NCBI RefSeq assembly: GCF_037975245.1
Contig: NC_092573.1
Coordinates: 9,830,001 to 9,894,000, forward strand
DNA: 64,000 nucleotides
Direction: 5' to 3'
Source of the DNA: Apostichopus japonicus
Taxonomy: Eukaryota; Echinodermata; Holothuroidea; Aspidochirotida; Stichopodidae
Part shown: one piece after another, positions 10,057 to 54,200 of the stretch
Layout: the number at the start of each line of letters is the position of its first letter
Position numbering within the stretch: the stretch's first letter is position 1
Translations under genes and position numbers: made by a program
Notes under the pieces: model-generated
What the model was told of the DNA's origin: nothing
What the model saw: only the letters and a program-made list of their open reading frames with translations
Database searches by the model: none

Positions 10057-27592
<17,536 letters not shown>

Positions 27593-28600
27593 AGGGGATA
27601 TTACACCCACTGCTCGACACCAGATAGGCCACTGAATAGAGAAGGGCCTGGAATAAGTTGAAGGGGATATTACACCCACTGCTCGACACCAGATAGGCCA
27701 CTGAATAGAGAAGGGCCTGGAATAAGTTGAAGGGGATATTACACCCACTGCTCGACACCAGATAGGCCACTGAACAGAGAAGGGCCTGGAATAAGTTGAA
27801 GGGGATATTACACCCACTGCTCGACACCAGATAGTCCACTGAATAGAGAAGGGCCTGGAATAAGTTGAAGGGGATATTACACCCACTGCCTGACACCAGA
27901 TAGGCCACTGAATAGAGATGGGCCTGGAATAAGTTGAAGGGGATATTACACCCACTGCCTGACACCAGATAGGCCACTGAATACATAAGGTCCTGGAATC
28001 AGGCGAAGGGGATATTACACCCACTGCTCGACACCAGATAGACTGCTGAATACATAGGGGCCTGGAATTAGTTGAAGGGGATATTATACCCCTGCTATAT
28101 GCCACACAGACTGCTGAATACAGGGGCCTGGAATCAGCTGAAGGGGATATTACACCCGCTGCTATACGCCAGACAGACTGCTGAATACATAGGGGCCTGG
28201 AATCAGCTGAAGGGGATGTTACACCCCTGCTATATGCCAGACAGACTGCTGAATACATAGGGGCCTGGAATTAGTTGAAGGGTGACATACACACTTTTCT
28301 ACACCACACAGACTGCTACACATGGAGGAGCCTGGTATTCAGCTGACATACTGATGTACTCCATATGGACTCTGATCATGGGATGGCCTGGTATCAAGTA
28401 AAAGTGATATGCACCCACTGCACTACACTATTACAGACCCCTGTACGTGGAGGAGCATGTTAATTAGCTGAGGTGATGCATATTAATTAGTACACCCTAT
28501 ATGGACCACTGACCATGGATGGATATACCTGGTATCAACTGAAAGTGATATTGTACCAATTGCTCTACACCAGATGGGAATGTAAACCCATCGCTCTACA

Positions 28601-32749: not shown

Positions 32750-35700
32750 CTGTAAGATAAGAAAATAACAAAAATGACAATTAAGTATAACAAGTTTCCA
32801 TGTTGACTTGCAGTTACTACAGGTTTGACCATTTCAATACAATATTACAACTTTGACATATCGCTATTAAAGAACAGGATTTTTCACCCGTCTTTGTTTA
32901 TCCGCTCCAAAGAATATTTTGGATGTAAACCCTGAATTGACCCAGTCTAGTGAACCCACCTGACCTGGGCTTGAACACAACCCTCCCAGATGCTAGGTCT
33001 CATTCCATCTGTGTAATTTCAATTACAGACCGTTATGCTATATTACACGCATTTCATAATAGGTCAGCTGTCCCAACCTGAGATCTATCAACCATCCCTG
33101 TTTTCAGTGAGGATATTGAAGAGGTGATATATCATAGATTCTCGTATTGGCATAAAAGAGCGTGAAGAGATTGAGGAATGTCTTAATGTTACAGCAATAT
33201 TTATAAGTCCTGTACAGGCTCGACAGAAAACGAAAAGAATATATATATTTTTTTTAAATTTGAAAATATTCACAACATATGTGATATGATTACTACAGGC
33301 ATCATTAACAGTTGCCTGCCAGTGCCTAACCAGTCATTAAATTACAAGGTGTCACAGAACAAAATGCTATGCACAATTATCAAATTTTTCTGCAAATACC
33401 ACTTAAAGATGCAAAGCATAAAGAACCATCGGGGTTTTCAACATTTTATACTATCAATCAAACAAAAACCTCTGCCGCTACTACGCAAAATTTAAAACGT
33501 GTCACAATTTTCCAGTCTAAAAGCGCTATTGTTTATACTGACCATGGCAAGTTTATGGACTTGTTCCACCCAAGCAGCAAACATAGCCCCAGCGCTAACA
33601 TCAATGAGATTCTTCATATATTGAACTGCCTCCTCGTCGGTCAAATCTAAGCGGAATTTATCCTGCAGCTGTGGAAAGAAAGAAGTACACAGTAGTATGC
33701 AAAAAATTAAACATCACCATTCTGTAGCTGAGAAGACAAGAAAGTTTGGCATAATTAAACTAGGTTTGCTACATTCATTATAGTGTTAACTTGAGACTTC
33801 TCTGCGACATGACAATGTAATGGACGATTATACGGCAACAGGTTGGGTGCGAGGGTGAGAAACATTCATCCTCCCCCCCACCCCCCCCCACTACATAAAG
33901 ACCAAAGACATTGAATTATTTACCTTTTTGACTGTTTTATCGGGTTCCAAGGCAATATCTGGAACATTGGCATCGACCATCAGAGTAAACAGATTCAGAA
34001 TAAGGTTTGCATGCCTGAAATATGAAACCAAAATGAAAAAATAGACGGATCACCTTTTGTTGATAACTTCTAGTGAATATCAATTGAGACTGAGTGTATG
34101 ATGATCCTGGGCTACCTGGTACTATGCCTTCTACACACTGTGTATCTATACTGACCTGTTTCTATGAATTTCACACAAACTTTCTTGAGAGTAGATACGA
34201 TGACTCCCTCCCTCTCCCCCCTCCCCCATACACACCTACAAATACCCCACATCCCCCCAACCAACCTTTCAAGGTCGAACCAGACTGTTTGTTATTTGAC
34301 TATTGATTGGAAGATGCACACAGCGTGATGGACAATTGGCTGAAGGCGTCGGACTTGTGATCCAACGATGCAAGGATTGCTGGTTCGATTCCTGCCTGGT
34401 TCATTACGCTGTGTCCTTGGGCAAGATTCTCTATCTCAATTGCCTCTCTCCACCCAGGGGTTAGATGGGTACCTGTGCGGTAACTTGTTATTGGGCGCAG
34501 TATATAACTGCTGCGGCAGACTGGAGGGATTGTCTCTGGGACAGGTTATCATTGACCAGGGGTAATATAACATCTGTAAAGCGCTTTGAGACCTATTGCT
34601 TGTTATAAAGCGCTACATAAAAATCGAAAATCAAATATTATACACAGCATCAACTCATATCACCGACTCTGTGATGGGGTTTACACTCACCTTCTGAGAT
34701 GCAGAAATGATGTGTAACAGAGCGTAATGAAGTCTTGGTACTGTTCGCTGTTGACCCCTCCCATCCCTTCCAACATCTCCTTGCTCAGCTTCATTGGAGG
34801 TGGGAAGGGTTTGGGGTCGCGACCCAGGATGTAACCAAAGTCAACATGGAAGAGGTTGCCTTTGGTGGTGAGGAGTAGATTATCCAAGTGACGGTCTCCT
34901 ACCCCTAACAGATAGGTGATCACACAGTATCCAGCATTGCTCTTAATGTATGTATCCATCACCTCTGGGGATATGTTGTAAGGAGCATTCTCCTTCGGGG
35001 CATGTTTCCGGAAAAAATTCTGGAGGACGAGAAGAGCGAGTTCTTACTCATCGATGTATGCAGAATATGACTAAATACTATTTCCATTACATACCAGTCA
35101 TTACAAATATTTCTTATTTTCATATTCAATTTTATTTTCTGTTTTTACAACTGGTATGATAATGATGGGGTAGGACAGCTCTCAGATAATATGGATCAAA
35201 GATGAAGTTAGAATATTTCCACAATATCTTTGACATCTAAATATATCTGCTGTTGATGTTTTTCTGTCTTGATTTTCTTCTCCTGGTTCAGTAAAGGGTT
35301 GCTTTTTCTACAAAGCTTTTGCTTCAGAAAGCATTTTCTTGAGTAACACTTGTTTTGGATACACATTAAACCTTAGACAAATTTTCAGATCCTTCTTATT
35401 CTGGTAAAGAAAACAGAACTATTAATATGAGCAAGTTGTTTTTAACAAATTCTCAACAACAATCAATCAATAGCAAACAAAAGCCAGATATTTCAAAGAC
35501 TACTTCATACCTGTATACTGCCCTCGCTGGATAGTACATCGGCCACCGCCGTAGATTCTACGAATTGCACAAAGCCAGTCTTGCTGCTGGTAGCCAGGAC
35601 GTTATATGGTGTCAGCTTCAAGTCTAGATTCTCTTGCTGTAGAAGCTGTGGATGACAAATGTAGAAGATGGAATTTTAAAGATAGCATGCTGCAATTCAC

Positions 35701-38700
35701 AAATTTCCCAATGGCATGACAGGATTATCAGGCATCATTCACAAGCTGTTACCAAAACAAAACAATAATATGCCATATCCTTTTAACTTAGTCTGTTGCT
35801 TTTTTTAAGAATGAAGAAAATAATCTAAAGTTTTTGTTGTTGTTTGCTTGCAGCCCAAAGAGATTTACAGTTTACTCACAAACTGCAAAGTTAAAGAAAA
35901 GTGTCTTTGATAATTGAGATATTTTGCAAACTTGCTCTCATACAGAGTGTGCTTCCATTTCATCTAGTCATCATTGTTTCTCTTTTTCTTTTTTTCTTTA
36001 GCATGATTCAAACTCTCATATCTGCTTTAATGAACTACATATACTTGGGTCTTACCATGATACAGTTCTGATTCGGTCATAACTATACATATGTTTCTTC
36101 TTTTTCTTCTTTTAAAGATCAAAATATGAATTTATTTTATTAGAAATTCTCCATTTTCCAAATTGCCAATTGATATCGATTACTTTTTGTATCATAGTCA
36201 GATTTTTTTTCCAAACTATAAAGACTAATCTCCTGATTCATCTGTTTCTGTCTACCGGAGTTGGTTTGTTTGCTTTTTAGGTCATTTCTCTCTTTATTAA
36301 AGTCACTAAATACCTTTCCTCTCATCCCAGAGATTTACCTTATCCATGAGAGAGATCATCTGTAGGATCAGCTGATCCTGTCTGAGATCATCTCCGGTCT
36401 TAGCGATGACGATATAGTCCTTGTTATCCACCGTCCTGAAGTACAGTTTACATGGCAACAGGGCACTCTTAAAGATGGAGGCTTTCTCTGCAATCAGACC
36501 AGTGATTCTAATCTCTGGTTGGATTGGAAGTGGAATGGGGTCAAAGTTGGATAACATCTGTTTGGAAAATTCAGTGCTCGCCAGCAAAGCTTGTAGTCTC
36601 TCGATCTATGAATAAGAAATAACCAGAAGGAACTGAATCATGTTGGCTAGCATTAATGTCAACATTAATGAACGACAAACGAATAGAAATATCAAATTGC
36701 TAGGCACACTACTCCACTTCCAGCTTGCATATCAACAGTGCTGCATTACAACCCACTCGCCTCTGATGCCCTCAGGCAAAATAATTATGCTTGCCACCTC
36801 CCCCTACCCTGCCCACCCACCCCCACACATACACAGCTGTGTGTACATTCAGACCGAGGACCCCATTGTTTGATCCATTGTTCAATGCTTCATACTCTAA
36901 CCATAATAATACCCCATAACAATAGAACTCTTGCGAGGACTGGTGATTCTTTAGAAATCACAACCCAGGACCCGTTCATGTCCTCAGTCAGAAAACAAAG
37001 CAAACGCACAAACACATACACACACACCCAATCAAGTTTTGCAGCACAATCCAAAAACTGATAAAGTTGGTATGTCTTGCTTGGAGGTGTTCACAGATGA
37101 CCCTTCACCTTGGAGAACCTTCAGCACCATGCCCCATCTGTCCATGGGCAATCCGAAATTGGATGAAATTGTCAAATTGTCAAATGTAATGAGAGATGTT
37201 GTATTTTCATACCAACCTTTTTCTTCCTGTTTCCGCTTTCCTTTGCGACGCTTCTCATCACCTCTAGAAGTTTATTGATTAAAACGTTCTGTCTCTTCAA
37301 CAGTCCATGCTTACGGAAATAATCTGCTGCTCCCTGTTAAACAAAATTAGAAGAGGGGATTCTTAAAGTCCTATATATATATATGAATATATCCAATTCT
37401 ATAGTTTAACAACTATTAATGACATCACAATATACTAACTTCATACGGACATAAATACCTACATCTAAAATACAGATCGATATTAAAAAAATATGAAATA
37501 TGGTGACAAAATAATCGATTGTGTGAAAGCTACTTTGAAATTTTTGAAGAAACTTAAATGCAATGTTTTTTGTTTTTACTAAATTACATTATTTCATGTA
37601 GAGATGTTGCAAGCAGGAAACAATATTAAGGATGCCATGATTGGAAAAGGAAAGCATCATCACTTCCTCAGCTATATATAGTTATGGAAATGAAGAAACC
37701 CAAGCACAGTTTATTTTTTCATCTGCTGGGGTGAGGATGTGAGGGGGAAGGGGGAAGAGGGAAGGGGAAAGGGACATGGGGCTTGAATTGTTTTGAGCCC
37801 TTCATTAATCTGGAATGGTAAGCAGATCTAGATAAACATACCTTGAGTAAGTGCTGTCCAAATCTCTGCATCACTGTATTGTACATTTCTTTAATCTGGG
37901 AATCTTTGGATATAGAACTCTGGTCATCCTTCTCTACCATTAAGTACCAATAGAAGTAATTGGCTAAGGTGTAATTCTTACAGGCTCTCTGGATCAGGAA
38001 GGTGGCTAAATCACACTGAAGAATTAGAAGGGAAAATATATGAGGGAATAGGTTAGGATGTGCACAACAGATACATAACAGGAAGGTGGCTAAATCACAC
38101 TGAAGAATAAGAAGGGGAAAATATGTAAGGGAATAGGTTATGATGTACAAAGCAGGTACACAACAGGAAATCACAATAAAGAAATGGAAGGGAAAAGATA
38201 TATAAGGGAATAGGTTAGGTTGTACACAGCAGGTACATAACAGAAAGGTGGCTCAATCACACTGAAGAAATAGAAGGGGAAAATATATAAAGGCATAGGT
38301 TATGATGTACAAAATAGGTACATAACAGGAAGGTGGCTAAATCACACTGAAGAATTGGAAAGGAAAAGATATGAGTGAATGGGTTATGATGTACACAACA
38401 GGCACATAACAGGAAGGTAGCTAAATCACACTGAAGAATAAGAAGGGGAAAATATGTAAGGGAATAGGTTATGATGTACAAAATAGGTATATAACAGGAA
38501 GGTGGCTAAATCACACTGAAGAATTAGAAGGGGGAAAATATATAAGGGAATGGGTTATTTTGTACACAGCAGGTACATAACAGGAAGGTGGCTAAATCAC
38601 ACTGAAGAATTGGAAGGGAAAAGATATAAGGGAATAGGTTAGGTTGTACACAACAGGTACATAACAGGAAAGTAGCTAAATAACACTGAAGAATTGGAAG

Positions 38701-41700
38701 GGAAATGATATAAGGGAATAGGTTAGGTTGTACACAACAGGTACATAACAGGAAAGTAGCTAAATAACACTGAAGAATTGGAAGGGAAAAGATATAAGGG
38801 AATAGGTTAGGTTGTACACAACAGGTACATAACAGTAAGGTAGCTAAATAACACTGAAGAATTGGAAGGGAAAAGATATATAGGAGTAAAGGTTATGATG
38901 TACACAACAGGTAAATAACAGGAAGGTGGCTAAATCACACTGAAGAATTGGAAGGGAAAAGATATAAGGGAATAGGTTAGGTTGTACACAACAGGTACAT
39001 AACAGGAAAGTAGCTAAATAACACTGAAGAATTGGAAGGGAAAAGATATATAGGAGTAAAGGTTATGATGTACACAACAGGTAAATAACAGGAAGGTGGC
39101 TAAATCACAATGAAGAAATGGAAAGGAAATGATATAAGGGAAAAGGTTAGGTTGTACACAACAGGTAGCACATAACAGCCAAAGTGACAACACTGTTCAA
39201 GTGACAGATGTTCATATTTGATCAATTATGAACTAACTTAGCACAAATGAAATGATATCTTCTTACCATTCTATCAAAAATTCAGTTGAATTGAATTTAA
39301 ATAATTTGAAAGACAGAGAAATTCCTTGAAATTTTTCAATGCATTACTTACAAATGAACCTAAATTTATACTCACTGTTTCTAAGGCTAAGTACTAATAC
39401 CCCGGGTAGAGTTAGAATATTGACTCAAGCAAATAACGGCTGTAGATATCATTAAACTGTGCAATTCACCATTTACAATTACGAATGGCCCAATCATCAC
39501 AGTGTTATCCAGATACTGCCTGACACCAAAAACTAGAACTAATTCAAGTAGTCATGTTGTGTTTCATTACTAAACTTACCTCAATTTATTCAACAAATAA
39601 ACAACAAACACCACTTACTAATAGACTCAAAAGTATTAATGTGATGTAGTGTACAAAAGGCTTTTGGAATACTTCTGTCACCCCAAGTCTTATATACAAA
39701 TTAGGCTAGGCATAGGCACATCTGCTATGACATGTTCCTGACCTTTTCTTGATGACAAATTCTGTTTGTTAAAATTAATCTCTTTCTTGAGACGTGATGC
39801 AAGTTACACCACATTGTTTAATTGACTTATTTGTTTCCTTGATTAAACAAAGGACGGCCTGAGGTTTTGATCTAAGGAGGACCTTCTCTGGGAACAGACT
39901 ACAACAAACAAGTAATTATACAATGGATAATCGTAAATACAAAGAAGTCATTGTTAAAGAACATCACCTACCTCCTCATCTTCATCCTCCTCTTCCTCCT
40001 CCGATGCGGGAGATGGAAATGAGCCGTAGACAGCTACTGTTGGAGGCAGAGGGGAGTCTGGGGTATCAGCTAGAGGGTGTGGTAAATTCCTGAGGGAAAG
40101 GAGAGGGGTGTACAGTTACAGGGAGTGCTCAGAGTCTTAGTGTTGCTTTACAGTCATGCATCCAATAATGCACCTCAGATTTAAAAGCAAGATAAGCCAT
40201 CTGTATACATCAGCTAAGAAAAAATTGTTTTAATCTAAAATCAGCTTCAGGTTAAATGGAGCATAATTTGTACAAAATTGATAATCACATAAAAGAGAAA
40301 GGGTAAATAAATCACTAATGATATAACACCTATTGTTGGAAATTGTAAACAAATCGAATAAATACTAATAAATACTAATAATAACAAAAAGAATAGGCCA
40401 AATTATTAGAAAAAGGACATTTGGGGGCCCCAATCAGTAGACAATTGGTAAAATCGGTATAACCAAAAAAATGACAGATTACGTAACATCTAAATTGTGG
40501 GGAAAATGTAAAAAGTAATAAAATTCACTTTAATCCCAATACATGCTGATGTCATATTCATGATTAAAATGATTTGGCATCATTTCAAATCTAAATCATA
40601 AATGGAACAAGGCAACATCAGGATTGTACAGAGTCATCAATTACTCACAAATTGGAGTGTTAGCTCAGTGGTTAAGGCCGGTGCCTTTCAATTATAAGGT
40701 CCCCGGTTGGAGTCACTCCCAGACTAATGTATGTCGTACAGTTACAGAGTTGCTGACAATTAACAATTCATAATCATGGACGTTAAATATGAATGTAAGA
40801 GACTGACTTCGGTCAGCTTGCGGCTTTGATAAGCCAATGATGGCTTCTTCGCAAGTTCCTGCTTGCAGGAGGATCTAATATACATACATACATACAAATT
40901 AACTCATAATTAGCAATCTTTGAGTGACAAGAGATACATGGTTATCTGAAGTTTCATCTACTGCGATCACTTTTCCGTTAAATTCTCTGCGGTCATGGCA
41001 AATCTGTCACAAGCAATCGACAGATAACAGACAATTATGCTTTAAGAGCCAATAATATTCATAAAAATAAAGGAGTAAGATCCATACCTGTCCCTCTCTC
41101 CCTGAGAAGAAACAGATTCTGTCCTCTTCTTATTCTGCATATCTAATCCGGCTTTTATCTCCTGGAAGTTTTCATATTTGAGAGCTTGGACAAGTTGTAA
41201 CAGATACAACATCAGTTCCTGTGAAGATATAATATAACAAAAAAACATGGGTAATGACTTTACAAAATTTCTTTGTACTGCTTTTATATCAATTTTTTCT
41301 GGTTTGGGGTTGTTTTGTTTGTAGAAAAGTACCCTTCATGTACCTTTAATGATCTGATACAATCACCTACTAATCCAACCTATAGTCCAGGTGAAAACCT
41401 ATGTTCCATTGATGCAACAGGAACATACTGCAAGAATTCTGGTGAAATTTCCACAGGATTCTTACGTAGTGTTTTCGAGATATTGATAATCAAACTTAAT
41501 GCAAACAGGTATGATGTCATCATTTGCAAACTGATAACAAACTGTTTCGTTTCCCTTTATTTGGATAACTAAATTGTTTTGACCATTGATTGGAAAAGGT
41601 TCCAAATTTTCCCTAAGGGGATATCAAGTTAACAATGTGATAATGACATTGAGATGTAACCTATTCCTGAAGGAGAAAACTTAATGTAAACGGATATGTA

Positions 41701-44700
41701 GGAAATGAAGAATGCAAACTTTCAACAGGATGCTTTAAATATGTTCCTCTTTCGTAAGTCAAATATCAATTTTCATCCGGACTACATCCTATCACATCAC
41801 TAGACAACGAGGGAAACTTCGTTTCGTTTATTTGCTTTATCACTTCGTGTATAAACACAACAGATTCAACATAACATATATTGAAACTACAGAAATTATA
41901 TAAACATGAGTTGAAAGGAAGTTCACAGAAACCCTGCATGGGTTTGAAGATGTGCAGTCCCGTATCCAATACACAAAAACATCGAGAAAATGAACAACTA
42001 CTAAGACTAGCAGAAAAGAGACAGCTAGGTTTAAACCACAAAGTAAAAATGAGACGTAGAAACGAGAGAAGCTCCACCCGGACTATCCTATCATATCACT
42101 AACCCGACAAGGAGGGCGACATTAAAGAATATCAACTCACCTCATCATCAGCCTGCTTTAACCTAGAGACAGCGTACCTCCTGACCTCGGGGTTCTTGAA
42201 TTGAGGGGAGAGAAGCTCCAGAGCATCGGCGACATCGATCGGCTGCCATTTTCTCATCAGGTCCAGAGCTTGGATCTCCTCGTGTACCATGTCCCATTTT
42301 ACACTCTTGAGGAATTTCGTGAGCGCTTGCTTCTGATTGGTCAGATAAAAACGAAACCTCCAGATGAGGTCTGCCTCCTCTGAACTGAGCACTTTGTTGG
42401 GACCAAACTTGATAATATGCTGAAAGAAATTAAATTTGAATTTGATGAAAACTTTATTTTAAGTTGCATTATTATCACAACCCCCCCCCTTAAAAAAAAC
42501 CCCAAAGAAGTCAATACCTTAAGAACGTCCTCTAACTTACATGGCTAGGCCCTATGGCATTTGCATGATGGACATAAATAGGCCTAGGCTTAACTTGCAT
42601 ACAATAGACAAAGCTTTTGTATTCAAATAATTTGCTAGTTACAATTGTCCTAATCATATTGAGTTATATTTTATAGAACTCGTATTTAACAATGCACCAG
42701 GTATTGGAGTGAATGGTTTTGAGAGTTTAGTGAGAAGGGCAAAAGTGTTGCATAATGTCAGCAAAAAAACAATGACTTGAGAAAGCATTGTTGTTGTGTG
42801 CTGTCTGTGTTTAATATATAATATCATAGACCACTAGTTGAGGGCTTTCATCATGTACACAGTAAAACCTGTTTTATCCAGACATTTATTACCCAAATGT
42901 TGGGTTATGATCGAAACTTCATCATGTTTCACTACTGAACATATGTTGTCACTAATCAAATTTACATTTCGAAATTTCTTTAACATTTCACATTATGTTA
43001 CAGCCCAAAATGGGAAAAAGACACTGAAAGAGTGAATGTTAAACCGCATGCACAGTGCTGTACCTCATATCATGTGACCACCCACTGGAACAGGAAACTC
43101 AAATTTATCAGAGGAAACTACAGTATTGAGATTTTCTTTGTGTTTGTACAACTTACTGCCTTGACATGAACGAATTATGCAGGTTTCACAGTACAACATG
43201 AAGCGCACACGCACATATTTTCTGAAGCCTGTAAGACTTTCAAAACCTAATAATGAGGCACATATATACAAACAATATGTTGGTCCAACCATGATTCAGC
43301 TAAAATAATAATATAACAAATCTTTGGAGAGTTTCCTTATAGAGTCTACATGTGATAGAGATATGATATCATAACAGATGGACAATATAAATGTAGAACA
43401 TTCAGATCTTTTAGTTTCCATGTAACGCCCAAAACTGACTGGTTTTGAGGATTTATGAGCGCTGATACTTACCTGTCTCCAGTCTAGTTATACACTATCA
43501 TTATCTACTTAACCTACAATCTGGTAACATTTAGCAATGCGCCCCCAATCCCACATCTGATCTCCCGCCCATGCAATCCTCCTGATGACTGTACCATTCA
43601 GCGAGTGACTATTCCAGATAGTAGGTTTGATGAGGAAAGTGCATAAATAGATTGGAGACAGGTAGAGAGAAACAAAGTAAAATGTAACATTTCCTCTTTT
43701 GCAATGGGAGCTGGGACATCCTAAAGGTTAGCTGCCATGGAATGGGAAGCAGACTTTCACTGTAACTTGGAATGTTGTGCTCTCTCCTGCTGTACACATT
43801 AAGTACTTACACTAAGCTGATCTCTGGTGTGAGCATTTGGCTTCAAGTCTCTGTCAGTCAATCCACTCCTTTCACTTCTGACCAAAGTGTGGTGTTTGGC
43901 CTCGATTAAATTTTCCTGTAATCAAGGTTTTCAAAAGTTTCTTTCGATTAAACCCACTCATTGAGGGATAGAGGAGTGAAAGAAAGGAAAATGAAATCAG
44001 CTTAGCAGTATCAAGGAAAATAAAGAAACAACAAGCCCAATGGCTCCTATTAGTCACCAAACAGCCCCTTAATTCCTGGAGAATTTATAACACAAGCCAT
44101 GTCCTAATGCTTAATAGCATATAGACAACTAATCTCGGCAACCCTTTTTCTCTTTCTTCGGACAAAGTAAACATCACAAATATATCACACATGGTATTAC
44201 TGCATGATAATTCTGTACAGCAAAAACAACGTAAAATGATACAAAAGTGTGGGGGGGGGGGAGGGGGGAGAGGGCCCTGGTCCTGGATAACTTATTTTCA
44301 CATCTGCTCTTACCATTAACATCTCAGGGTCTGGTACAGTAACAATATCAGCATGATGACGAATAGTAACCACTTCTTCAGCATCCTAAGAGCCCAAAAA
44401 ACAAATATATATATAGATGTGTCATCGGCATTGATCATTATGATAGATATGATTGAAAGAAACAACTACAAAAATCTTATTCCATTTGGGAGGCATCCCG
44501 TTTAACAATCCTTCTAAAACAACCCTAAAGAGTACGGACCCCGACACAAGTTTCAGATTCGGGTGCCAGGAAGACCTAACAATATCCAGTGTGGTGGCAG
44601 CACACCCAAAATATTTCTCCTCAACAGAGGGAAACAAATGCTTAGACATTTAGAGGAGAATTTTATATCATATTACTTGTCAGAAAGATGGCTAGTATTT

Positions 44701-47700
44701 CTACAACCATTAACATGAACAGGATTTCAAATGAACTATTCTTGGCTTCCTAACCCTTGGCTAAACTAAACTAATAATCTGTAGATGATGGCTGGAGTTG
44801 CCTTCTATTTTATAAAAACATATACGGTGATTGTCAGCCTGACATTTGTAAGGCAGAGTGTCACTCACTGGCATAGAAGATAACTTTTCCTTTGCAAAGA
44901 CGAGCTGAACTGTGATCTAATTACAATGACAATGTACCCGATGTTTATGTGAAGGTATCGATGCATAAATGTAAACACTTGATGACTGTTGTAACTTCCC
45001 GTATAATTTGTAACACACAGAATTGCCTTTCTGTTTACAGTTCTAAAGAGTTCATACCTAGGGCACCTGACAGCGCTAAGCTAACAGGCATCAAACCAGC
45101 TTATTTTGAAATGCACGGATACAATTTAAGTGGCTTTGAAAGTAAAAACCAGATCGTTTTGAGTGTTCAGTACTGTAGAGTAGGCTAGAGGCCTCACGTA
45201 CAACTTTAAAGTAAGTGGCAAACTCTGTGTGTAACAGTGTATTAGCCGACGTGAGAACGAACTTCACGTCCAGTCTTGTAAGAAACACTGCTCGGGACAG
45301 ACTGTCCGAGATGCTGTGGTCAAATAAAGAAACTGTTGCGGATATATATCTGCTTTCCAATTAGGTTAATCTGATAACACTATAATCATGAAAGGAAAGC
45401 TTTCCCACTCGCGAGCGGCTTCGACGTTTGCGCTCGCATCCTTCCATGACTAACAGTTCTGTAGCGATTGATAGCATGCACTCGTGGATGCGTGCAGGGT
45501 CCTACATAACATAATTTTGACAAGAAGCCTTAATTTGTAAAAAACGTACAGACCCAGATATGGCAGTATCCACCTTTCGCATTGATGTAGCAACACAAGA
45601 GTAAAGTTAATCACTCAAAGCACCCCGAACAAAACTTTCATATTTGGTTATTAAGAGATTATAGCTTATATTGCATTTACACCCTATGTTGCTTACATTA
45701 CCTTCTCATAATAGACAATTGAAAAGTCGATGGTGTTGTAATGAATCCTGGCAAATTCAACCATTAGGAACATGAAATTGGACTCTCTCTTCTCCTTCTG
45801 TAAAAATTAAAAGTAAATCAACTCTTAATAGGGCACAAATATTAAAGTTTTGACATCTTGTAGACTGTTAGCAGCCGCTGTTATCACAATTCAGGTTGTT
45901 TTACGACAACATTTGTAATGTTTGAGAAAATGACCCTTTAAACAGTTTAAAGTTCATCAATTCAAGAGACTGGATGGATTATATAGTCTTTAAATACACA
46001 GACCATTTGGTCATTTTTTTCAGATTCGCAACAAAACTTGATGGGAAATAGACAAGAGTTTCATGGTCTCAAATGACATGTTTTTTTTTAATGCAGTAGA
46101 AACTTTTCAAGACAGGATGTATTATATAGTCTTTAAATAAACAGACCATTAGGTCAGTTTTATTCAGATTTGCAATGAAACTCGATGGGAAATATAGACA
46201 AGAGTTTCATGGTCTCAAGTGACATGTTTTTATCATGCAGTAGAAACTTTTCAAGGACAACTGGTGTCAAAGGTCATCCAAAGGTTCTTTGTTGTTAACA
46301 TGGAGTTGAAAGAACATTTCTTGGCCGAGAGTTATTAGAACTAACATAAACAATGGATTAATATTAAGGTCTAAACTGAGGAATGGACATCATCGTCAAT
46401 TTTGCCTTAATGGAACATTCCAGAGATTTAGCATATATGTTAAAGGTAAATATCTTAGACACCAAACAAGTCGAAAAAATATAAATTGAACTCTTTTTTG
46501 TCTTTCTTTCTTTGTGGACTATATATCATATCAAGATTAAATTCTACCTAAACTCATCGTTTAAAGGTATACTCTCACCTTGCAAGAAATAAAAAGTGGA
46601 AACATGGGTTTAAGGAAGTTGATTGCATGTGTAGCATATAGTTTCTCCTGCCATGGAAAGATAATACTGAAATTTCAGTCTATTGATTATTATGATTATT
46701 ATGATCATTATTGAGGGTACCTTTGGCAAGTAAAGGGGCATGGCAGTTGTTGCCATCGGTAACAGGTGATTTCTAAGGGCAGCACAGCAAAGGTAAGGGG
46801 CACCGACGCCAATTTGCCATCTGTGTCGTTGGTTAAGTCAAGCCTTGCTTATAATAAAAATAATGATCATAATATTCAGGCATTTATTTTTACGACGCTT
46901 AAGCGACCACAAATGTGGGAGACACCCGCAAGTGCTTATTATGGATTACAACTGTCATGTCGGGTGGCTTCCAATTCAAAATTTTATCTCAAATTTGGAA
47001 TCTTTCCAATTTAGAATATCATCATTTCATCTTATCAAAAGTAAATACTTCTATTAATAAAATCTTTCATGTCTTTCACCTCCTACCTCATTGATCATCT
47101 CCAGTTCTCGAAAGGTCAATCTGTCCAACCAATCGACCTTCTGCATTTTGCCTTTATGGTGTTGTTTGGTAAGTTTAGCCAACTTTGCCATGGTGTCATC
47201 ACCGACCAATTTACCAGGTGTCTTGGTGCTGGCATACCCATCGGCCTCTTGGTTCGGCCAGACTTTCAAATCGTGCATACCCTGTCGGTACGTCCTGCCG
47301 TGAAAGACGAAAGAAATTATATTTAGTTTGTGTAGAATGTGTCGTCCTCGTTTTGGTGTAAATTGAAAAATACCACACATGTTATCGATTGATGATGTGT
47401 TACATCGACACTTCCCAAAATTATCGGTCGGTACGCCGTACTCTTAGGGTGTGGAACTTGAGCGAGTATTAGAAAACAAGATGGAGAATCTGACAATAGA
47501 ATTCCAAACTGCCATGAACATTTTTGGTAAATGTGAGTGTGCTCTTGTTTATACTAACTTTCATTCAATGTGCAATCGATTGCAATCAAATCAGTCAATG
47601 TGCAGTTGCTTGCTTGCTTTTTTTATATATTTTTATATAGCACTTTATACCAGTGATAGGTCTCAAAGCGCTTTACAGACGTTATATTACTCCTGGTCAA

Positions 47701-50700
47701 TGATAACCTGTCCCAGAGACAATCCCTCCAGTCGACAGCAGTTATATACTGCACCCAATGACAAGTTACCTCACAGGTACCCATTTAACCCCTGGGTGGA
47801 GAGAGGCAAGTGAGATAAAGCATCTTACCCAAGGACACAACGTAATGAACTAGGCAGGAATCGAACCAGCAATCCTTGGATCACGAGTCCGACGCCTTAG
47901 CCAATTGGCCACCACGCTCTCAAATAATCAATCAGGAGAATATATCTGGTTTATTTTAGGCTTGGACCTACAAGTAGCAAGTTTGGGAAGCAGCCAGGGT
48001 GTACGACACCCTTCATAAAAAATGTTAACTGGCACAGCTGGACTTCCAAACTTGCTACTTTAATCTACTGATTCCTGTTGGAAAAGATGATCTTAGAACG
48101 ACAGAAATATTAATTTGCAATTACAAATGTGAATCATCCATGTTAAACACACAGCCATAGCAGGAACCATGCATGGTTAAATTAAATTCTATTGACAGTA
48201 CATTATTTCTGCATTGTTTACAAATTCTTTAAGCATATTTCAGAAATCTCTTTTGAAACTTAGGTACTTTGTAAATAACCAAATATTTGTGAGTTGTTAG
48301 TGACTCATTCAAAACTAACAGATCATCTATAACACTTCCTTAGATTTCTCGTTCACATATTTGAATAAAAATTATGTCACTGAAAAACGAAACGCTTTCT
48401 TGCTTGATACTGTTATCGTTATGTATGCTTTCGTGGTGTGTGATTCTTGAAGCTGTGTCAGACAGATTCTTGCTTTATAAAATCAACTCTGTTAACTCTA
48501 ATACATACTAATAAAACTCTCTACGGGGAGTTTTCATTTATAGAATTGAAAATGAGGACAGTCGGAAACTATTGTGTGGGAGACTGACCACATGTCTAGT
48601 AGCAGGTTAAATACTCAGTACCTCAAACAGAAGGAAAGAAAAAGTAGCACTAAGGCTTCCACGAATTAGGTTATAAGTGAGAGCTCTTGTATACATGTGA
48701 AGTAAGCACTAGTTTCGCATTGACAAATGTCAGATTTGTCACATCACAATGTACGCAAAGCAAGACTAACATCCCAAATTACATACTAGAAGACAAAGTA
48801 GTTAGGATGATGTTCCATTGCTGCTATTGATGATATTTGTCCTCTAGAGATTGCAAATGTCAGACGTTACAAGTGTTATTGACACCTTGGCAAACTATGA
48901 TCATCAAGACCTTTGAACATAGCAGGGGTTGGCTTCGGTTTTTGGGGTTGAAAAACTCAATTTTTAAGAGACTAATAGAGCCAGTTTTACATTAGCATAT
49001 TCATTTAGGCACCTTGTCAAAGAGAGAAAAAAAACTGCAACAAAATGCAAAAGCTGCTGCATCAAGGCTGAATCAATATCAAACGATGAACATGAATCAA
49101 TATCAAACAATGAACATATCAGCAGTGCCTATTTTGTGAAATTGCACAGCACAAAAGATTACATCTGCAGGATTATGTGGAACCCTCAGCATCTTAGGTT
49201 TGACATTGTACTTTACTGTACTTTATCAATAAACCTATAAAGTTACATATAGTAAAAAAGAATGCAAGGTTTGACTTTCAATGTGCAATGACATGGCAGA
49301 TTTCTGCATGTACTGTATTGTTAAATATTTTATATATTTTTTAATTTTTTAATAATAATAATAATAAGAAATTATATATATATAATAATATAAATAAATA
49401 AAATAAATTTAAAAAAATAGAATAAATAAATAAATAAATTAAAATAAAAATAAAAATGTTAAAATAAAAAAAAATGAAAAAATCCTTCAATATAATAAAA
49501 ATGTGGGATTTTATTCAAAGTTCTTATTTGAGGCAAAGTTGACAACCAAAAGTTTACTACCAGCAATGTATTCAAGCTATTCCCCTATAGAGTTTTTGAC
49601 TCACCCATGTTTACCAAAGAGTGCAACAGTTGTACCACCCACGGGCCTGGCCTCCGTTGGGCTGTACACATCCCAGATAGTAAAGGCGGCCTACCGGAAC
49701 GAAACAACAATTAACTGTCAGTACACTATTTGTCATTGGTATAGATACAAAGCAGCAAGAAATTTAACAAATGAAGCCAAGTTAGATAAAAGTAGAGTGC
49801 AGCAGTTGAGGAGGGACATGTCAAGAATAACAAAATGTAATAGCGTAGGTCGGAATAACTCCTTGGGACAATTTTAATATGCATATTTGTTTTGTATAAA
49901 CCAATTTAATGTGTGGTGTACAAGCCATACAATGCATAAACTATTATATCAACTCTTGAATGGAACTAATTTGTTGAGTTCGAAGAGTAATGTCCTGTTT
50001 TGAAAGCTACAAATCTGTTTTTACTAATATTGTAATGTTTTAACTATGAGTGTACATTAGGTGTATTATTCACAAACCCACCGGGCTTTTGATTTTTGTA
50101 ACCTGACTTCATGACTTACTGTCATGTTTTCTTTTCATTATATATTTGCTAATTCTTTTAAGATGAGCCATCACAACATGGACAATTTAGTCAAATTTCC
50201 ATTGTTTCATGAGTTGCTGTCTTGCTTGCTTTGTTAGATTGTATCAGTTAGTATATACTGTCTATACTGCGATAACAATGACAGTGATAATTAATCAATG
50301 AAAGTTTTATCGGTTCAAGAGATACTACCAATGCAGGTAATATCTTCCTACCTCCACCCTACTACTTTGCCCAACTCATCCCCCACCTGCACCAAAGCAC
50401 TTCCCTCCTTTCGCCCCCATATTTTTCTAACTCCCAAGCTCCAAAAAGTACCAATGAAGTTTAGCAAAATTTGAAACACATAATTAGAAACAGGTTAGAA
50501 ATATACAAGGCATATGCTTTTGGTCACAATTTTCATACAACTTTTGTAAATTATTGATTCCCTCTTTATTTAGTTTATTATCTGGTCTCGTTACCTGAGC
50601 ATTTCGTGGAAGGTCACTGTACTTGACTGGTAAAGTTAGCCATTCATTCCAGCTGAAAATGAACAAAGAGTAGTACACAACATTCAGTGATTAATTTACT

Positions 50701-53700
50701 GTACAAATTTTGCGGAGCATTTCATTAGGCTCTAAATTTCTCTCGTTGAATACTATAGTTCCTGTGTAGAAACTGCTATACATCGTAACACTTGTATAAC
50801 AACTTGACCATTTTCTATCACATTTTGTACACACAGGGTACAATCAGTAATTCAGCTCCATTGGATATTGTCAACATCAGCTGACTCAACCGTTATTTGG
50901 AAGTTAACTGGAGAAGCTTGATCTGGCTTCCCAATAATGTTTAGAGCAAAGATTTTACAACACCTCTTTCCCAATCCCCACAGCCTCACCCCTCCCCCAA
51001 TCTCAAATCTGTGTCAGGGTTCCTGAGCTTCTACGTGTGATTTCCCAGAGCAGACTGAACATGAAAAATAGCCCCATTTTTGGAGACATCACCTTTGAAC
51101 ATTCCATGAAAGTAAAAGACCTTTTATACTTCAAAACTTTGACAGTGTACTGATAACAATTTTCTAAAAGATAAGCATTGTTTCAGATTGACTGATCATA
51201 TCTGATATCAATTTACATAACTCATAAGACTTTTGATGTCGAAGGTTTGGAAAAGAGACAAAGGACCTTTCGAACAGACAGACAAGCATACAGACTGACA
51301 GAGAAAAATGAAATGAACATTGACATATTGTTGAGTGCAGTACTAAGTTTAGTATGCAGTAAAAATAAAGAAACCAAATGAAGCCTGTCAATTTCAAATA
51401 TCTTCATCAATGTTTGGTAATGTAGCATGGATATTTCATGTAAAAAGTATAGTTTGATAACTGGAGTTCAGGTACATCCTATCAAAATTAAGGTTTCTGT
51501 TGAACTTGTTAGTGACTATTTGGCATGTTCCTAATTTTGAGAAAACCTTAGCTTTGTTGGGTTTTGACTTGGTACAAAGGTGAGGTAATCTTTAATGCCA
51601 AAAATTTTACATAATTCCTTGTAACCAAGTTTACAATCAAAATTTTCTCCAGCATTTTTTTTTTAATTACTTAGATTCAGTTCAAGTGATAGGACCAGAA
51701 TAGCTAAATGTTTTCTATGTAAGGGAGAAAATAATGTTCACTAACAATGAAATGAAACTGTTTACTTACTTCCACCTGGTAGTGAATGCTTTGTAACATG
51801 TTTGGGTAGGCAAAGTTAGTGCCTTGCCATCAGCAAAAATCTGACATGTCACATACAAATCAGAACATTTATCTTCATAGAGACCTGAGAACCTCAGCTG
51901 TGGATCATCTAACAACTCCCGATAAGTTGGCTTTTGACGCTTTCCCTCAAGTGTTCCACTGCACATACAAAAAAAGAAGAAGCGAAGAATAGAAAAATAC
52001 ATGTAATCCTGCATTGCAGCAAGTGGTCCCTAGACCTATGTCATGTTACATGCGATAACCTGGAGATTTCCAAAAATCGTTGATCTCGAACAGTTTCATT
52101 GCCTAAAAGCTGGTTTGATGTGCTTCCCAGGATATATCATGGACCTCATTTTGTGAAAGGTTCCATACTAGATTTTTACCCTGAAAAGTAGAGAATTTAG
52201 ATATGTAAATCCAATCTGCCAAACAGTACTCACACCTCAGTTCAACAGTATGGACCGAAATGTAGGCAATGGGAAGTTATTTTTGTACAAAAACTGAACA
52301 CAAAAGGATGAATACAGCTTTAATTTTAAGCTGCTTGATTTACAGCCGGGTAGCTATGGCACAAATTGATGCATTTTCAATTTTAAAAAACTAAAAACTT
52401 AAAGAACACATATAAGTTCTGCATGGTTTTGACACAAGTTCTAGTCTATCTTATATGCTGAGGGGAGTTTCTCATAGAGTCCCTGACATGATCTTCATAG
52501 TGCTACAGGATTTAGTGAGAGTGGCACCAAATGCATCATGCATCCATCACACTTGAACACTCTGCAGAGACTAAAAAGTAAATAGACAGGCCGAGAACTG
52601 AATATTTGTATTTTGTGGGTTGCAAAAGCAAGTGTGAACACAGGGAAGTATTAAATGTTTCAATTTTGTGTAGCAGGTTTTAAGGCTCTTAAGTTTTTCT
52701 TAATAAATACTACAGTTTTTGTGTACAAAACCTGCTATACATCTCTCAACTTGTATAGCAATTTTTTCCTTGTTACATAGCATTTTGCAATGCGATATTG
52801 GATAAATTATTCCCTGCAACATACATGGATCACCTAGAGAAAAAACTAGGAAAATTACTTTACAACCTGCTGCAAGTTTAAGGATAGGGACCTGTGACTT
52901 TTTAAGTTTAAGAATTGTGCCTATCGCCCACCATGTTCTTGCTTAAAAGTTTCATTATTTACACCAAATTTTCTATACCTACACAAAGAATGCACTCCAT
53001 CACATAAAATTCCACATCAGCAAACAATTAAATGGTATATAACTACATAAACTATCTAACAAATTTCAATAACCGGTGCTGTGGTAGAGTGAATAAAGGT
53101 GGTGGCATTTGAAGCAATGAGGCTTAGCAATCAGGAGGTTCCTGGTTCGATACCCGGCTGGGTCATTTGTAAGGTGGGTTTTAAATCCAAGAGCAATCTA
53201 TGGGTTTCCCATCTGAAATGACTTTCTAAATTGAAATGATTCCAAATTTGAGTTAAAATGTTTAACTGGAAGCCACCTGAAATGTAAATTTTAATCTATA
53301 AGCCCTTGCAAGTTTATCCCACATTTGTGGTTGCTTAAGAATCGTAAAAATAACTGCAGATTATTATTATTATTCAGAGGCAAATCTAAAAACTTACCAT
53401 TCCCATGGCCTTAGGTCAAAAATAAAATCCCACAGTAGTATTTGTAGAAGAACAGTATTGAAGCTGGCATATGACCTAAGCTGCCGTGCTAACCCAACCA
53501 CAGAAAATGTTGGCGGTTCATTAGAGATCTCTAACATTTGTTTCAGGAATGAGAGTTCAAACCAACAATGGGTTCTGTAATATACACCAAAGTGTCTTAA
53601 ATGCAAAATTGGTGTTTCCTTGTTTCACTGTGGCAATTTTGGCCTTTCAGTTAAGACTTTATAGGCTAGATCAATTACAAAGTAAATTTTAATGCATGTG

Positions 53701-54200
53701 CGAGGTTAGGGAAACTTTTCCTTGCTTTGAGCAGTTTGACTCAGTTTAACCTTATCCAGTAGGCCTATAATGTTTTATATTTCTGGGGGACTCTGGTCAA
53801 ACATCGAGGCTATGAAATCTTGACTACATAGGCCAATGATGAATAGAACTAGAAGTAGGCAAGGCTTTAACCACTAAGCAAAATCTGCATTAACCACCAT
53901 CATCCTTTAAAAGAACATTAATGCCGTTACTACCGCGATCTTACTGCATACCATCATACTACAGGACACGATCTCCATCCCTGTTTCATACCTTTTCCTT
54001 CTATCAATATTACAGTGTGGTTATCGCTTGCAGAAAGGATAGGCTGTGCTAAACACTTACAATAACACTGAGTAAGACTACTAAGAGTAACAACATCATA
54101 ACCTAGCCTACGTTAGACAACTTGCTTACATTTTAATTTGAATATTAATTTCTAAGTCGCAACTGTAGACATAGTAAAATCTGTCGCTGACTTCCTCCAT
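32735..54200 (-). CDS. PIK3C3: PIK3C3 / VPS34 class III phosphatidylinositol 3-kinase, 19 coding exons
   Basis: Class III PI 3-kinase phosphorylates phosphatidylinositol to PI3P on endosomal and autophagic membranes, in complex with VPS15 and Beclin 1. Nineteen exons join in consistent phase to 888 residues, against 887 in human. An N-terminal C2 region ([35 protein letters not shown]-type WNEW; LTIWDVY-type FTIWDVY) precedes a helical domain from about 290 to 530 ([29 protein letters not shown]). An acidic linker [10 protein letters not shown] lies at 462-471. The kinase domain has Lys637 in [14 protein letters not shown], the catalytic loop DRHLDN at 744-749 and DFG at 762-764. Human numbering is one lower at each. 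All key residues are intact. ATG 54200 has a strong context (A at -3, G at +4). The gene is convergent with KIF24 and divergent from the gene at 57625. Its terminal exon has only four codons. Confidence 0.97.
33543..33668 (-). CDS. PIK3C3: PIK3C3 exon 18
   Basis: Residues 843-884, [18 protein letters not shown] and VEQVHKLAM. It ends at donor GTCAGT. Unspliced, the frame would instead add 17 unrelated residues and stop. Confidence 0.93.
33924..34014 (-). CDS. PIK3C3: PIK3C3 exon 17
   Basis: Residues 812-842, [20 protein letters not shown] and EPDKTVKK. Acceptor ATATTTCAG, donor GTAAAT. Confidence 0.97.
34325..34634 (+). mobile_element. tRNA-derived SINE, family B, copy 1, in PIK3C3 intron 16
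   Basis: The head has an A box (TTGGCTGAAGGCG) and an intact B box (GGTTCGATTCC) 30-40 bases apart. The body includes ACCCAGGGGTTAGATGGGTA and GTCTCTGGGACAGGTTATCA. The tail has paired GCGCTTTGAGACC and TAAAGCGCTACATAAAA. An inverted copy lies at 47625-47926. The cloverleaf ends are lost, so this is not a tRNA gene. Confidence 0.88.
34691..35019 (-). CDS. PIK3C3: PIK3C3 exon 16 (catalytic and activation loops)
   Basis: Residues 703-811 plus a split Arg. It has [32 protein letters not shown] and EGMGG; the catalytic residues are intact. Acceptor GTCCTCCAG, donor GTGAGT. Confidence 0.98.
35511..35645 (-). CDS. PIK3C3: PIK3C3 exon 15
   Basis: Residues 658-702, with [20 protein letters not shown] and EGSIQ. 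Acceptor CATCCACAG, donor GTATGA. Confidence 0.97.
36339..36605 (-). CDS. PIK3C3: PIK3C3 exon 14 (kinase N-lobe)
   Basis: Residues 569-657. It contains the ATP-contacting Lys637 in [20 protein letters not shown]. Acceptor TATTCATAG, donor GTAAAT. Confidence 0.97.
37217..37333 (-). CDS. PIK3C3: PIK3C3 exon 13
   Basis: Residues 530-568, ending [11 protein letters not shown] (human [11 protein letters not shown]). Acceptor TTTAACAG, donor GTTGGT. Confidence 0.94.
37842..38015 (-). CDS. PIK3C3: PIK3C3 exon 12
   Basis: Residues 472-529, [20 protein letters not shown] and onward, matching human DLCTFLISRACKNSTLANY. The acceptor AATTCTTCAG and first 21 bases are the last unit of an 84-bp tandem array lying upstream. 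Donor GTATGT. Confidence 0.97.
38016..39172 (-). repeat. 84-bp minisatellite carrying the PIK3C3 exon 12 splice acceptor, ~13 units
   Basis: Read on the minus strand each unit contains CCTAACCTATTCCCTTATAT, a pyrimidine tract with CCAATTCTTCAG, then TGTGATTTAGCCACCTTCCT. The last is identical to the start of exon 12. About 13 units extend upstream of the real exon, with one internally deleted near 38165. Homology to the exon ends exactly at its 21st base. The array occupies most of intron 11's 3' third. Confidence 0.95.
39173..39971 (-). other. rest of PIK3C3 intron 11
   Basis: Nothing recognisable; AT-rich unique-looking sequence. Confidence 0.5.
39972..40089 (-). CDS. PIK3C3: PIK3C3 exon 11 (acidic linker)
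   Basis: Residues 432-471. A Pro/Ser-rich segment ends in ten acidic residues. It corresponds to the variable linker in human, so sequence match is weak, but phase fits both sides exactly. Acceptor CCCTCAG, donor GTAGGT. Confidence 0.88.
40654..40899 (+). mobile_element. tRNA-derived SINE, family A, copy 3 (longest), in PIK3C3 intron 10
   Basis: The head reads GTTAGCTCAGTGGTTAAGGC (A box) and GGTCCCCGGTTGGAGTCACT (degenerate B box). The family A body follows, with GGACGTTAAATATGAATGTA, GCGGCTTTGATAAGCCAATG and CTGCTTGCAGGAGGA, then a (CATA)n tail to about 40899. It is antisense to PIK3C3. Confidence 0.92.
41088..41218 (-). CDS. PIK3C3: PIK3C3 exon 10 (helical domain)
   Basis: Residues 389-431 plus a split Arg; [20 protein letters not shown] is strongly conserved. 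Acceptor CTTCACAG, donor GTATGG. Confidence 0.97.
42141..42419 (-). CDS. PIK3C3: PIK3C3 exon 9 (helical domain)
   Basis: Residues 296-388, including [20 protein letters not shown] and [18 protein letters not shown]. Acceptor TCTTTCAG, donor GTGAGT. Confidence 0.97.
43811..43915 (-). CDS. PIK3C3: PIK3C3 exon 8
   Basis: Residues 261-295, [18 protein letters not shown] and [13 protein letters not shown]. This is the entry to the helical domain. Donor GTAAGT. Confidence 0.95.
44250..44274 (+). other. G-run tract in PIK3C3 intron 7
   Basis: A run of 11 or more Gs, then A, six Gs, AGA and three Gs. It can form a G-quadruplex on the non-transcribed strand of PIK3C3. Confidence 0.7.
44314..44385 (-). 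CDS. PIK3C3: PIK3C3 exon 7
   Basis: Residues 237-260, ending VPDPEMLM, which matches the VPDPQ segment of human. Acceptor CTCTTAG, donor GTAAGA. Confidence 0.9.
45702..45797 (-). CDS. PIK3C3: PIK3C3 exon 6
   Basis: Residues 205-236, [15 protein letters not shown] and IVYYEK. Acceptor TTTTTACAG, donor GTAATG. Confidence 0.95.
46000..46260 (+). repeat. ~132-bp tandem duplication in PIK3C3 intron 5
   Basis: Two adjacent copies share TATATAGTCTTTAAATA, CAGACCATT.GGTCA and GACAAGAGTTTCATGGTCTC. They differ at scattered bases. Confidence 0.88.
47087..47294 (-). CDS. PIK3C3: PIK3C3 exon 5 (end of C2 region)
   Basis: Residues 135-204, with [18 protein letters not shown] and [17 protein letters not shown], both near-identical to human. 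Donor GTAGGA. Confidence 0.97.
47625..47926 (-). mobile_element. SINE family B, copy 2, in PIK3C3 intron 4
   Basis: Inverted relative to the copy at 34325. The plus strand reads AGCACTTTATACCAGTGATA, then GTCTCAAAGCGCTTTACAG, and ends with the reversed B box GGAATCGAACC (minus sense GGTTCGATTCC) and GCCAATTGGCC. Confidence 0.9.
49320..49500. repeat. AT-only low-complexity tract in PIK3C3 intron 4
   Basis: Runs of AATA, TAAA and TATATA with almost no G or C over about 180 bp. It lies close to the exon 4 donor on the minus strand. Confidence 0.9.
49605..49690 (-). CDS. PIK3C3: PIK3C3 exon 4
   Basis: Residues 107-134 plus a split Gly; [20 protein letters not shown]. Acceptor CCGGTAG, donor GTGAGT. 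Confidence 0.95.
50595..50652 (-). CDS. PIK3C3: PIK3C3 exon 3
   Basis: Residues 87-106, [19 protein letters not shown]. Acceptor TTTTCAG, donor GTAACG. Confidence 0.95.
50700..50870. repeat. diverged dispersed repeat, member 1
   Basis: Shares ACTGCTATACATC, ACTTGTATA and CATTTTG blocks in the same order with 52660-52830. Both lie in PIK3C3 introns. The family is unidentified. Confidence 0.55.
51770..51958 (-). CDS. PIK3C3: PIK3C3 exon 2 (C2 region)
   Basis: Residues 24-86. [19 protein letters not shown] and [20 protein letters not shown] match the family. Acceptor TGTGCAG, donor GTAAGT. Confidence 0.95.
52660..52830. repeat. diverged dispersed repeat, member 2
   Basis: Partner of 50700-50870, with GTGTACAAAACCTGCTATAC and CAACTTGTATAGCAA. 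No terminal repeats are visible. Confidence 0.55.
53073..53170 (+). mobile_element. tRNA-like SINE head, family C, in PIK3C3 intron 1
   Basis: It has a TGTGGTAGAGTG A-box-like word and a consensus B box GGTTCGATACC about 60 bases later. The sequence between does not fold as a tRNA, and only one copy is seen here. Confidence 0.55.
54130..54200 (-). CDS. PIK3C3: PIK3C3 exon 1 (start)
   Basis: Encodes residues 1-23 plus a split Ile, with [12 protein letters not shown] matching the human N-terminus. Donor GTAAGC. Confidence 0.93.

Follow-up and report, generated by a model that had tools for sequence, protein, structure and literature searches.

How can a kinase gene carry a long row of copies of one of its own splice acceptors and still encode an intact protein? 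This question is raised by a window of DNA (the whole stretch analysed, 64,000 nucleotides, positions 9,830,001 to 9,894,000 of the forward strand of contig NC_092573.1) from the sea cucumber Apostichopus japonicus. The minus strand of the window carries a gene for the kinase PIK3C3, in which the border between intron 11 and exon 12 is repeated as a minisatellite. Tandem repeats that span an exon/intron boundary were named mirages in amphioxus (PMC3087553). The PIK3C3 array is probably a mirage of this type, which tandem duplication and unequal exchange would have built up where it now lies, with decoy acceptors that are mostly ignored.

Read on the minus strand, the array comprises 14 head-to-tail copies of the intron 11/exon 12 junction, 13 of them upstream of the true one, and in the unit alignment each unit joins about 63 intronic nucleotides to 21 exonic ones. 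The original prediction, which had counted about 13 tandem acceptor copies in front of exon 12, was thereby borne out in its core, both by Tandem Repeats Finder (TRF) and by alignment on the minus strand. TRF reported an 84-bp unit repeated 11.8 times at 38168-39167 (88% matches, score 1448), gave a 170-bp period for the same interval as well, and called the whole array, 37995-39167, with a period of 254 bp (score 1666). The upstream junctions have their boundaries at 39109, 39023, 38939, 38853, 38769, 38685, 38601, 38515, 38430, 38346, 38261, 38175 and 38099, and the true one lies at 38015. Successive distances between these junctions are 86, 84, 86, 84, 84, 84, 86, 85, 84, 85, 86, 76 and 84 bp. 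The claim that the unit is a multiple of three therefore did not survive, as a spacing of 84 bp occurs in only six of the 13 intervals and the other seven (76, 85 or 86 bp) are not multiples of three.

The acceptor dinucleotide AG is present in 12 of the 14 copies (11 of the 13 upstream ones) and is missing at 39109 and 38175, and the motif TAAC is found in all 14 units. Each unit had been described as holding a branch-point-like element, the acceptor and the first 21 bases of exon 12. In this description, the junction stands, whereas the AG is missing from two copies, the branch-point-like CTAAC occurs in only half of the units (7/14) and the exonic bases equal the true start of exon 12 in only 6 of the 13 upstream copies. 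When the array DNA was searched against the 671.6-Mb genome, by a method that skips very common words and thus gives lower bounds for repeats, it matched one place, namely itself. Because a single genomic place was found, the array is not a dispersed element.

The gene around the array was modelled with a human PIK3C3 sequence, which placed its exons between about 54188 and 33546 of the minus strand. The resulting model of 18 exons and 884 residues contains no stop and uses the last acceptor of the array. Its protein shows a C2 domain, a PIK domain (Pfam PI3Ka, residues 283-527) and a kinase domain (632-832). Exon 12 matches PIK3C3 chains in PDB (best E 5e-17) and begins at residue 472, within the PIK (helical) domain and just past an acidic stretch; the array is thus not situated at the junction of the helical and kinase domains, where it had been thought to lie. 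The predicted exon 11 encodes a proline-rich and then an acidic stretch ending in EEDEDEE. It was the best of eight candidate exons in the gap, with a score of 21.3 against 12.8 for the next one on a rough splice matrix. Direct splicing of exon 10 to exon 12 was considered and rejected for wrong phase (the exon 10 donor is in phase 2 and exon 12 needs phase 0), and in the gap scan the 118-nt exon 11 restored the phase between them. A megablast comparison of the exon DNA with phage records gave no match, which has no bearing on the question. The features are collected in Table 1.

Table 1. Features of the PIK3C3 locus and its boundary-spanning array, in window coordinates.
Feature	Position	Strand	Basis and remarks
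PIK3C3 gene model (884 aa in 18 coding exons)	33543..54200	minus	PI3K_C2, PI3Ka, PI3_PI4_kinase; extreme 3' end provisional
Exon 11 (predicted), 118 nt	39972..40089	minus	Predicted from splice borders and phase
Intron 11, 1956 nt	38016..39971	minus	Array makes up 59% of length; donor at 39971 is that of predicted exon 11
Exon 12, 174 nt	37842..38015	minus	True acceptor before 38015; homology from second residue, AG/GT borders, phase 0
Boundary-spanning minisatellite	37995..39172	minus	14 junction copies: U0 true, U1-U13 upstream; TRF and unit alignment
Outermost copy U13, boundary 39109	39089..39173	minus	AG lost (CAT)
Degenerate copy U2, boundary 38175	38155..38240	minus	AG lost (TAT); diverged in its exonic portion
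Candidate 5' extension of exon 12 via acceptor U1	38016..38099	minus	84 nt, 28 codons, no stop

The PIK3C3 array has the structure by which the amphioxus mirage is defined. Its tandem unit spans the exon/intron border including the splice signal (with AG in 12 of 14 copies), the unit that continues into the remainder of the exon forms its true border, with the frame intact in the gene model, and the array is specific to this locus, where it lies in place with one match in the whole genome. It does not have the structure of a gained intron, as the array lies within intron 11, flanked by predicted exon 11 and by exon 12, and no former exon is split.

The array probably arose by tandem duplication, in place, of an 84-bp segment across the border of intron 11 and exon 12, a segment that slippage and unequal exchange would then have expanded to 14 copies. 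The duplications would extend into the intron, and because they run in this direction, the last copy still heads the full exon 12 and the predicted protein remains intact. The similarity of the copies is in line with this origin. U7 and U11 show no difference within the unit, U8 and U9 are 99% alike and U10 and U12 98% alike, while the exon-side copies U1 and U2 are only 62-86% like the other copies. Near-identical distal copies together with diverged exon-side copies fit unequal exchange or tandem-repeat turnover. The same comparison bears on the possibility that the assembler multiplied the copies. The identity of U7 and U11 alone would not exclude a local error; however, each copy departs from the consensus at between 1 and 19 positions, several unit lengths occur, and similar arrays with other units occur at unrelated genes and in two duplicate CDK11-like loci, described below. 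An artefact of assembly is accordingly very improbable.

Positions at which the 13 upstream copies depart from the true copy were also counted by class: 3/39 in the CAG, 27/273 in the exonic part, 7/65 in the CTAAC region, 59/429 in the pyrimidine tract and 47/277 in the upstream part. These counts show nothing firm, because the copies are not independent. Among the 59 tract differences, 39 exchange one pyrimidine for another, 14 turn a purine into a pyrimidine and 6 turn a pyrimidine into a purine. This pattern, in which most changes keep or gain pyrimidines, would be expected if the array acted as a splicing enhancer, that is, if its many branch-point-like and pyrimidine-rich sites gathered U2AF and U2 and raised the inclusion of exon 12 while the true site was chosen. 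The unchanged TAAC in every copy points the same way. Conservation is nevertheless weak evidence among copies related by descent and recent exchange, and CTAAC is kept in only 7 of 14, so that we hold such a function to be quite improbable.

What the splicing machinery makes of the decoys probably depends on more than the acceptors. On a crude weight matrix, the AG-bearing decoys score 9.8-12.4 and the true site 11.3, which agrees with the earlier picture of a ladder in which very similar acceptors precede the true one. As the decoy scores bracket that of the true site, the acceptor sequence itself does not single out the true copy. In classic experiments with duplicated sites, exon sequence and proximity are reported to govern the choice between duplicated splice sites. 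The PIK3C3 decoys are probably ignored because the complete exon and its donor follow only the last acceptor; in other words, exon definition would lead the machinery past the decoys in most cases. Rare use of a decoy would mostly yield mRNA with a premature stop, and such mRNA would presumably decay.

Ten of the 11 AG-bearing upstream acceptors lead to a premature stop within the extension, including three at multiple-of-three distances from the true site (246, 924 and 1008). Frequent decoy use could therefore lower PIK3C3 mRNA through these stops, and array length would then brake expression. The decoys do not appear to have been selectively destroyed, with AG lost in just 2 of 13, which would also suit such a brake. 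Against it, reverse transcription PCR (RT-PCR) in amphioxus is reported to suggest regular splicing at comparable arrays, and we regard a brake of this type as improbable.

The single open decoy is the acceptor at 38099 (U1), which adds exactly 28 residues without a stop, as the original prediction had stated. From this, it had been proposed that copy number tunes isoforms: some transcripts, in a proportion that is either steady or regulated, would use U1, the 28 residues would be inserted into the helical domain, and the number of copies would shift this share. U1 does carry a CAG and a pyrimidine tract, scores 12.4, lies exactly 84 nt from the true site and is open, and the insertion point follows the proline-rich and acidic stretch, which is probably disordered, judging by eye. 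The added peptide is, however, hydrophobic and cysteine-rich, just one of the 11 AG-bearing decoys is open, and only six of the 13 spacings are divisible by three. PIK3C3 introns, moreover, often contain open frames of such a length. Outside the array, 28% (4479/15771) of sliding 63-nt windows are open, the share is 46% (981/2115) among pyrimidine-rich windows, and an open frame-0 stretch of 63 nt stands directly before 5 of the 16 other PIK3C3 acceptors. The open frame at 38099 is thus unremarkable for these introns. The other boundary arrays found in the genome never give an open extension. The proposal of isoform tuning by copy number is left unsupported and is, in our estimate, unlikely. 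Partial use of 38099 itself may occur.

Several observations weigh against a mirage of mostly ignored decoys. U1 scores no lower than the true site and its frame is open, so that at least one decoy could, on its sequence, be used productively. U0 has 5 differences from the consensus, against 18 in U1 and 19 in U2, and a simple rule of a sheltered array edge does not predict that the copy joined to the exon is closer to the consensus than its two neighbors. Additionally, the recurrence of boundary-spanning arrays in the genome, considered next, rests on three kinase genes, all with arrays on the donor side.

This recurrence was assessed at 166 other exon loci of the genome, drawn by protein family match without regard to repeats. 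Of the 134 kinase matches listed, 30 loci, often with a single exon, were taken as L004-L033, and 80 stretches with 600-base flanks formed L034-L113. The latter cover 84 of the other 104 kinase matches; the 20 omitted were mostly apparent single-exon or near-duplicate matches. The kinesin set took 56 of 126 listed matches, mostly the better-scoring ones, with 280-base flanks (L114-L169). Repeats that touch the match edges were sought by self-comparison of every locus, and flagged loci were read by eye, except for six members of the L025 cluster. Clear boundary-spanning arrays were found at 4 of the 166 loci, in three genes, all of them kinases and all on the donor side; this count is probably a lower bound, as match edges are not always exon borders and arrays may be missed. 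None of the 56 kinesin loci showed one. PIK3C3 is thus the sole acceptor case among the boundary arrays found in this genome.

Two of the four loci, L045 and L046, are near-identical and CDK11-like, an identity established for L045. They carry a 70-bp unit of about 63 exonic bases plus the donor, with eight decoy donors each in the examined stretch. CDK11 itself is linked to splicing. These two loci lie 3.3 Mb apart on one contig (C11, at about 6.327 and 9.613 Mb), with at least nine junction copies each. The third array (L086:746-1374) repeats a PRKG1-like exon end with a GTAAT donor in 42-bp units to the end of the examined stretch, giving 14 decoys. The fourth (L020:1854-2369) repeats a kinase exon end with a GTAAGT donor in 31-bp units, with about 15 GT decoys; Pfam identifies its product only as a protein kinase, which we take to be MLCK/titin-like. 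Every listed decoy donor at these four loci leads to a stop. The listed totals of 17 sites for L086 and 17 for L020 are too high, as three PRKG1 sites were entered twice and the L020 list contains one site beyond the array and one that lacks GT.

Exon borders are not a preferred place for arrays. In the set of 80 stretches, the share of bases in arrays with a period of at least 20 is 2.4% up to 100 nt from a match edge, 4.5-7.6% in the 100-nt bins beyond, out to 600 nt, and 0.6% inside the matches, so that arrays are rather thinner at the borders. Further flagged loci were not counted. At L134 and L163 the array begins some bases inside the intron, and at L078, L090, L074 and L127 it is intronic. 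Short, decayed donor-border copies make L082 and L133 uncertain cases, while at L054, L083 and L047 matches of 60-69% were found and a junction copy was not seen. The six members of one similar cluster (L025, L028-L031 and L033) have edge matches of 62-84%. Among the kinase matches, two exon match pairs on contig C7, near 15.942 and 16.071 Mb, have equal or nearly equal scores and equal spacing, and stem either from duplication in recent times or from the retention of a second haplotype.

The closest known systems are those of amphioxus. In the globin gene BflGb6, the unit runs from the 3' end of an intron into the 5' portion of exon 2, haplotypes carry six or three units that are 81-100% identical, RT-PCR suggests regular splicing, and an array turnover similar to that proposed for PIK3C3 is described (PMC3087553). 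Like those of BflGb6 and BflGb9, the PIK3C3 units contain an intron end, a splice signal and a piece of exon, some units within the array are near-identical, and the unit adjoining the exon body forms the true border; BflGb6 is, moreover, of the acceptor-side type, as is PIK3C3. The host is an echinoderm rather than a cephalochordate, the unit is shorter (84 against 150-160 bp), the copies are more numerous (14 junctions against 3 or 6 repeat units) and their identity ranges more widely (62-100% against 81-100%). Haplotype variation and RT-PCR are known for the amphioxus globin, whereas the PIK3C3 array is known from the sequence of one haplotype.

In the lancelet PGBD5 gene, imperfect 60- and 108-bp tandem repeats lie over the 5' and 3' splice sites, with 2 or 7 and 3 or 6 copies depending on the assembly, and Adh and TnC are cited as further lancelet cases (PMC3902484). 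PGBD5 shares with PIK3C3 repeats that overlap splice sites while protein homology stays largely intact, and differs in its fewer copies and in the species. Intron gain by tandem genomic duplication (the Rogers model as cited in PMC3087553; also PMC4974935) likewise duplicates segments with splice signals within a gene; in PIK3C3, however, the duplication lengthens an existing intron and creates none. A different comparison is offered by competing 3' splice sites that lie close together. Tandem acceptors such as NAGNAG lie only a few bases from one another and use a single branch point in common. The PIK3C3 acceptors resemble them as nearby competitors but are spaced 76-86 nt apart, each with its own TAAC and tract. 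A search of the open-licence literature, as far as its texts were accessible, found no boundary arrays in echinoderms or elsewhere outside amphioxus. The PIK3C3 array is thus of a known kind, in a phylum for which that search found no earlier report, and the evidence that several such arrays exist in its genome is modest.

Other features of the window and the genome were recorded alongside. The contig of the window is one of 23 that measure 18-46 Mb. Kinesin motor exons lie on the plus strand at 15456-19275 (matches at 9845456-9845674 and 9849090-9849275 of the contig, C13) and are followed by a stop-to-stop open frame of 1444 codons at 19685-24019, with no Pfam match; these perhaps form one gene that runs towards PIK3C3 from the other side. 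At 27536-28282, a 69-bp unit is repeated 10.9 times, with minus-strand open frames of 263 and 157 codons, the former with no Pfam match and the latter with weak ones. In the 10,000 bases read of the mitochondrial contig C35 (16,099 bases), COX1, ND4L, COX2, ATP6, COX3, ND3, ND4, ND5 and CYTB, presumed identities assigned by eye, lie on one strand, and an ND6-like frame on the other. Its COX1 shows asparagine in GGFGNW and MNNMSFW, positions presumed to be conserved, only with AAA read as asparagine (code 9). This code and the gene order, the latter judged by eye, point to an echinoderm. A search for GFP exons, made with amphioxus in mind as a possible source, had no match; its 14 control genomes gave none either, and this negative therefore carries no weight. 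Another contig, C29 (31,219 bases), holds five COX1 matches in pieces and is either a mitochondrial copy or a misassembly.

The recurrence of such arrays in one echinoderm suggests that the amphioxus phenomenon is wider among deuterostomes. These arrays are natural competition experiments: a single transcript holds one true splice site next to about a dozen near-identical ones, and the strictness with which the full exon determines the choice would be visible in ordinary RNA reads. Such arrays are also a source of sequence for the lengthening of introns, and in amphioxus boundary arrays have been proposed as raw material for new introns (PMC3087553). A more far-reaching proposal, which we put forward with considerable doubt, is that minisatellites across exon borders are a regular component of this 671.6-Mb genome, tolerated through readout of the full exon, and that the length of the PIK3C3 array also sets the share of transcripts with the 28 additional residues or with stops. 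If this were true, the output of the kinase would depend on an unstable repeat, and lancelets would not be alone in carrying such arrays.

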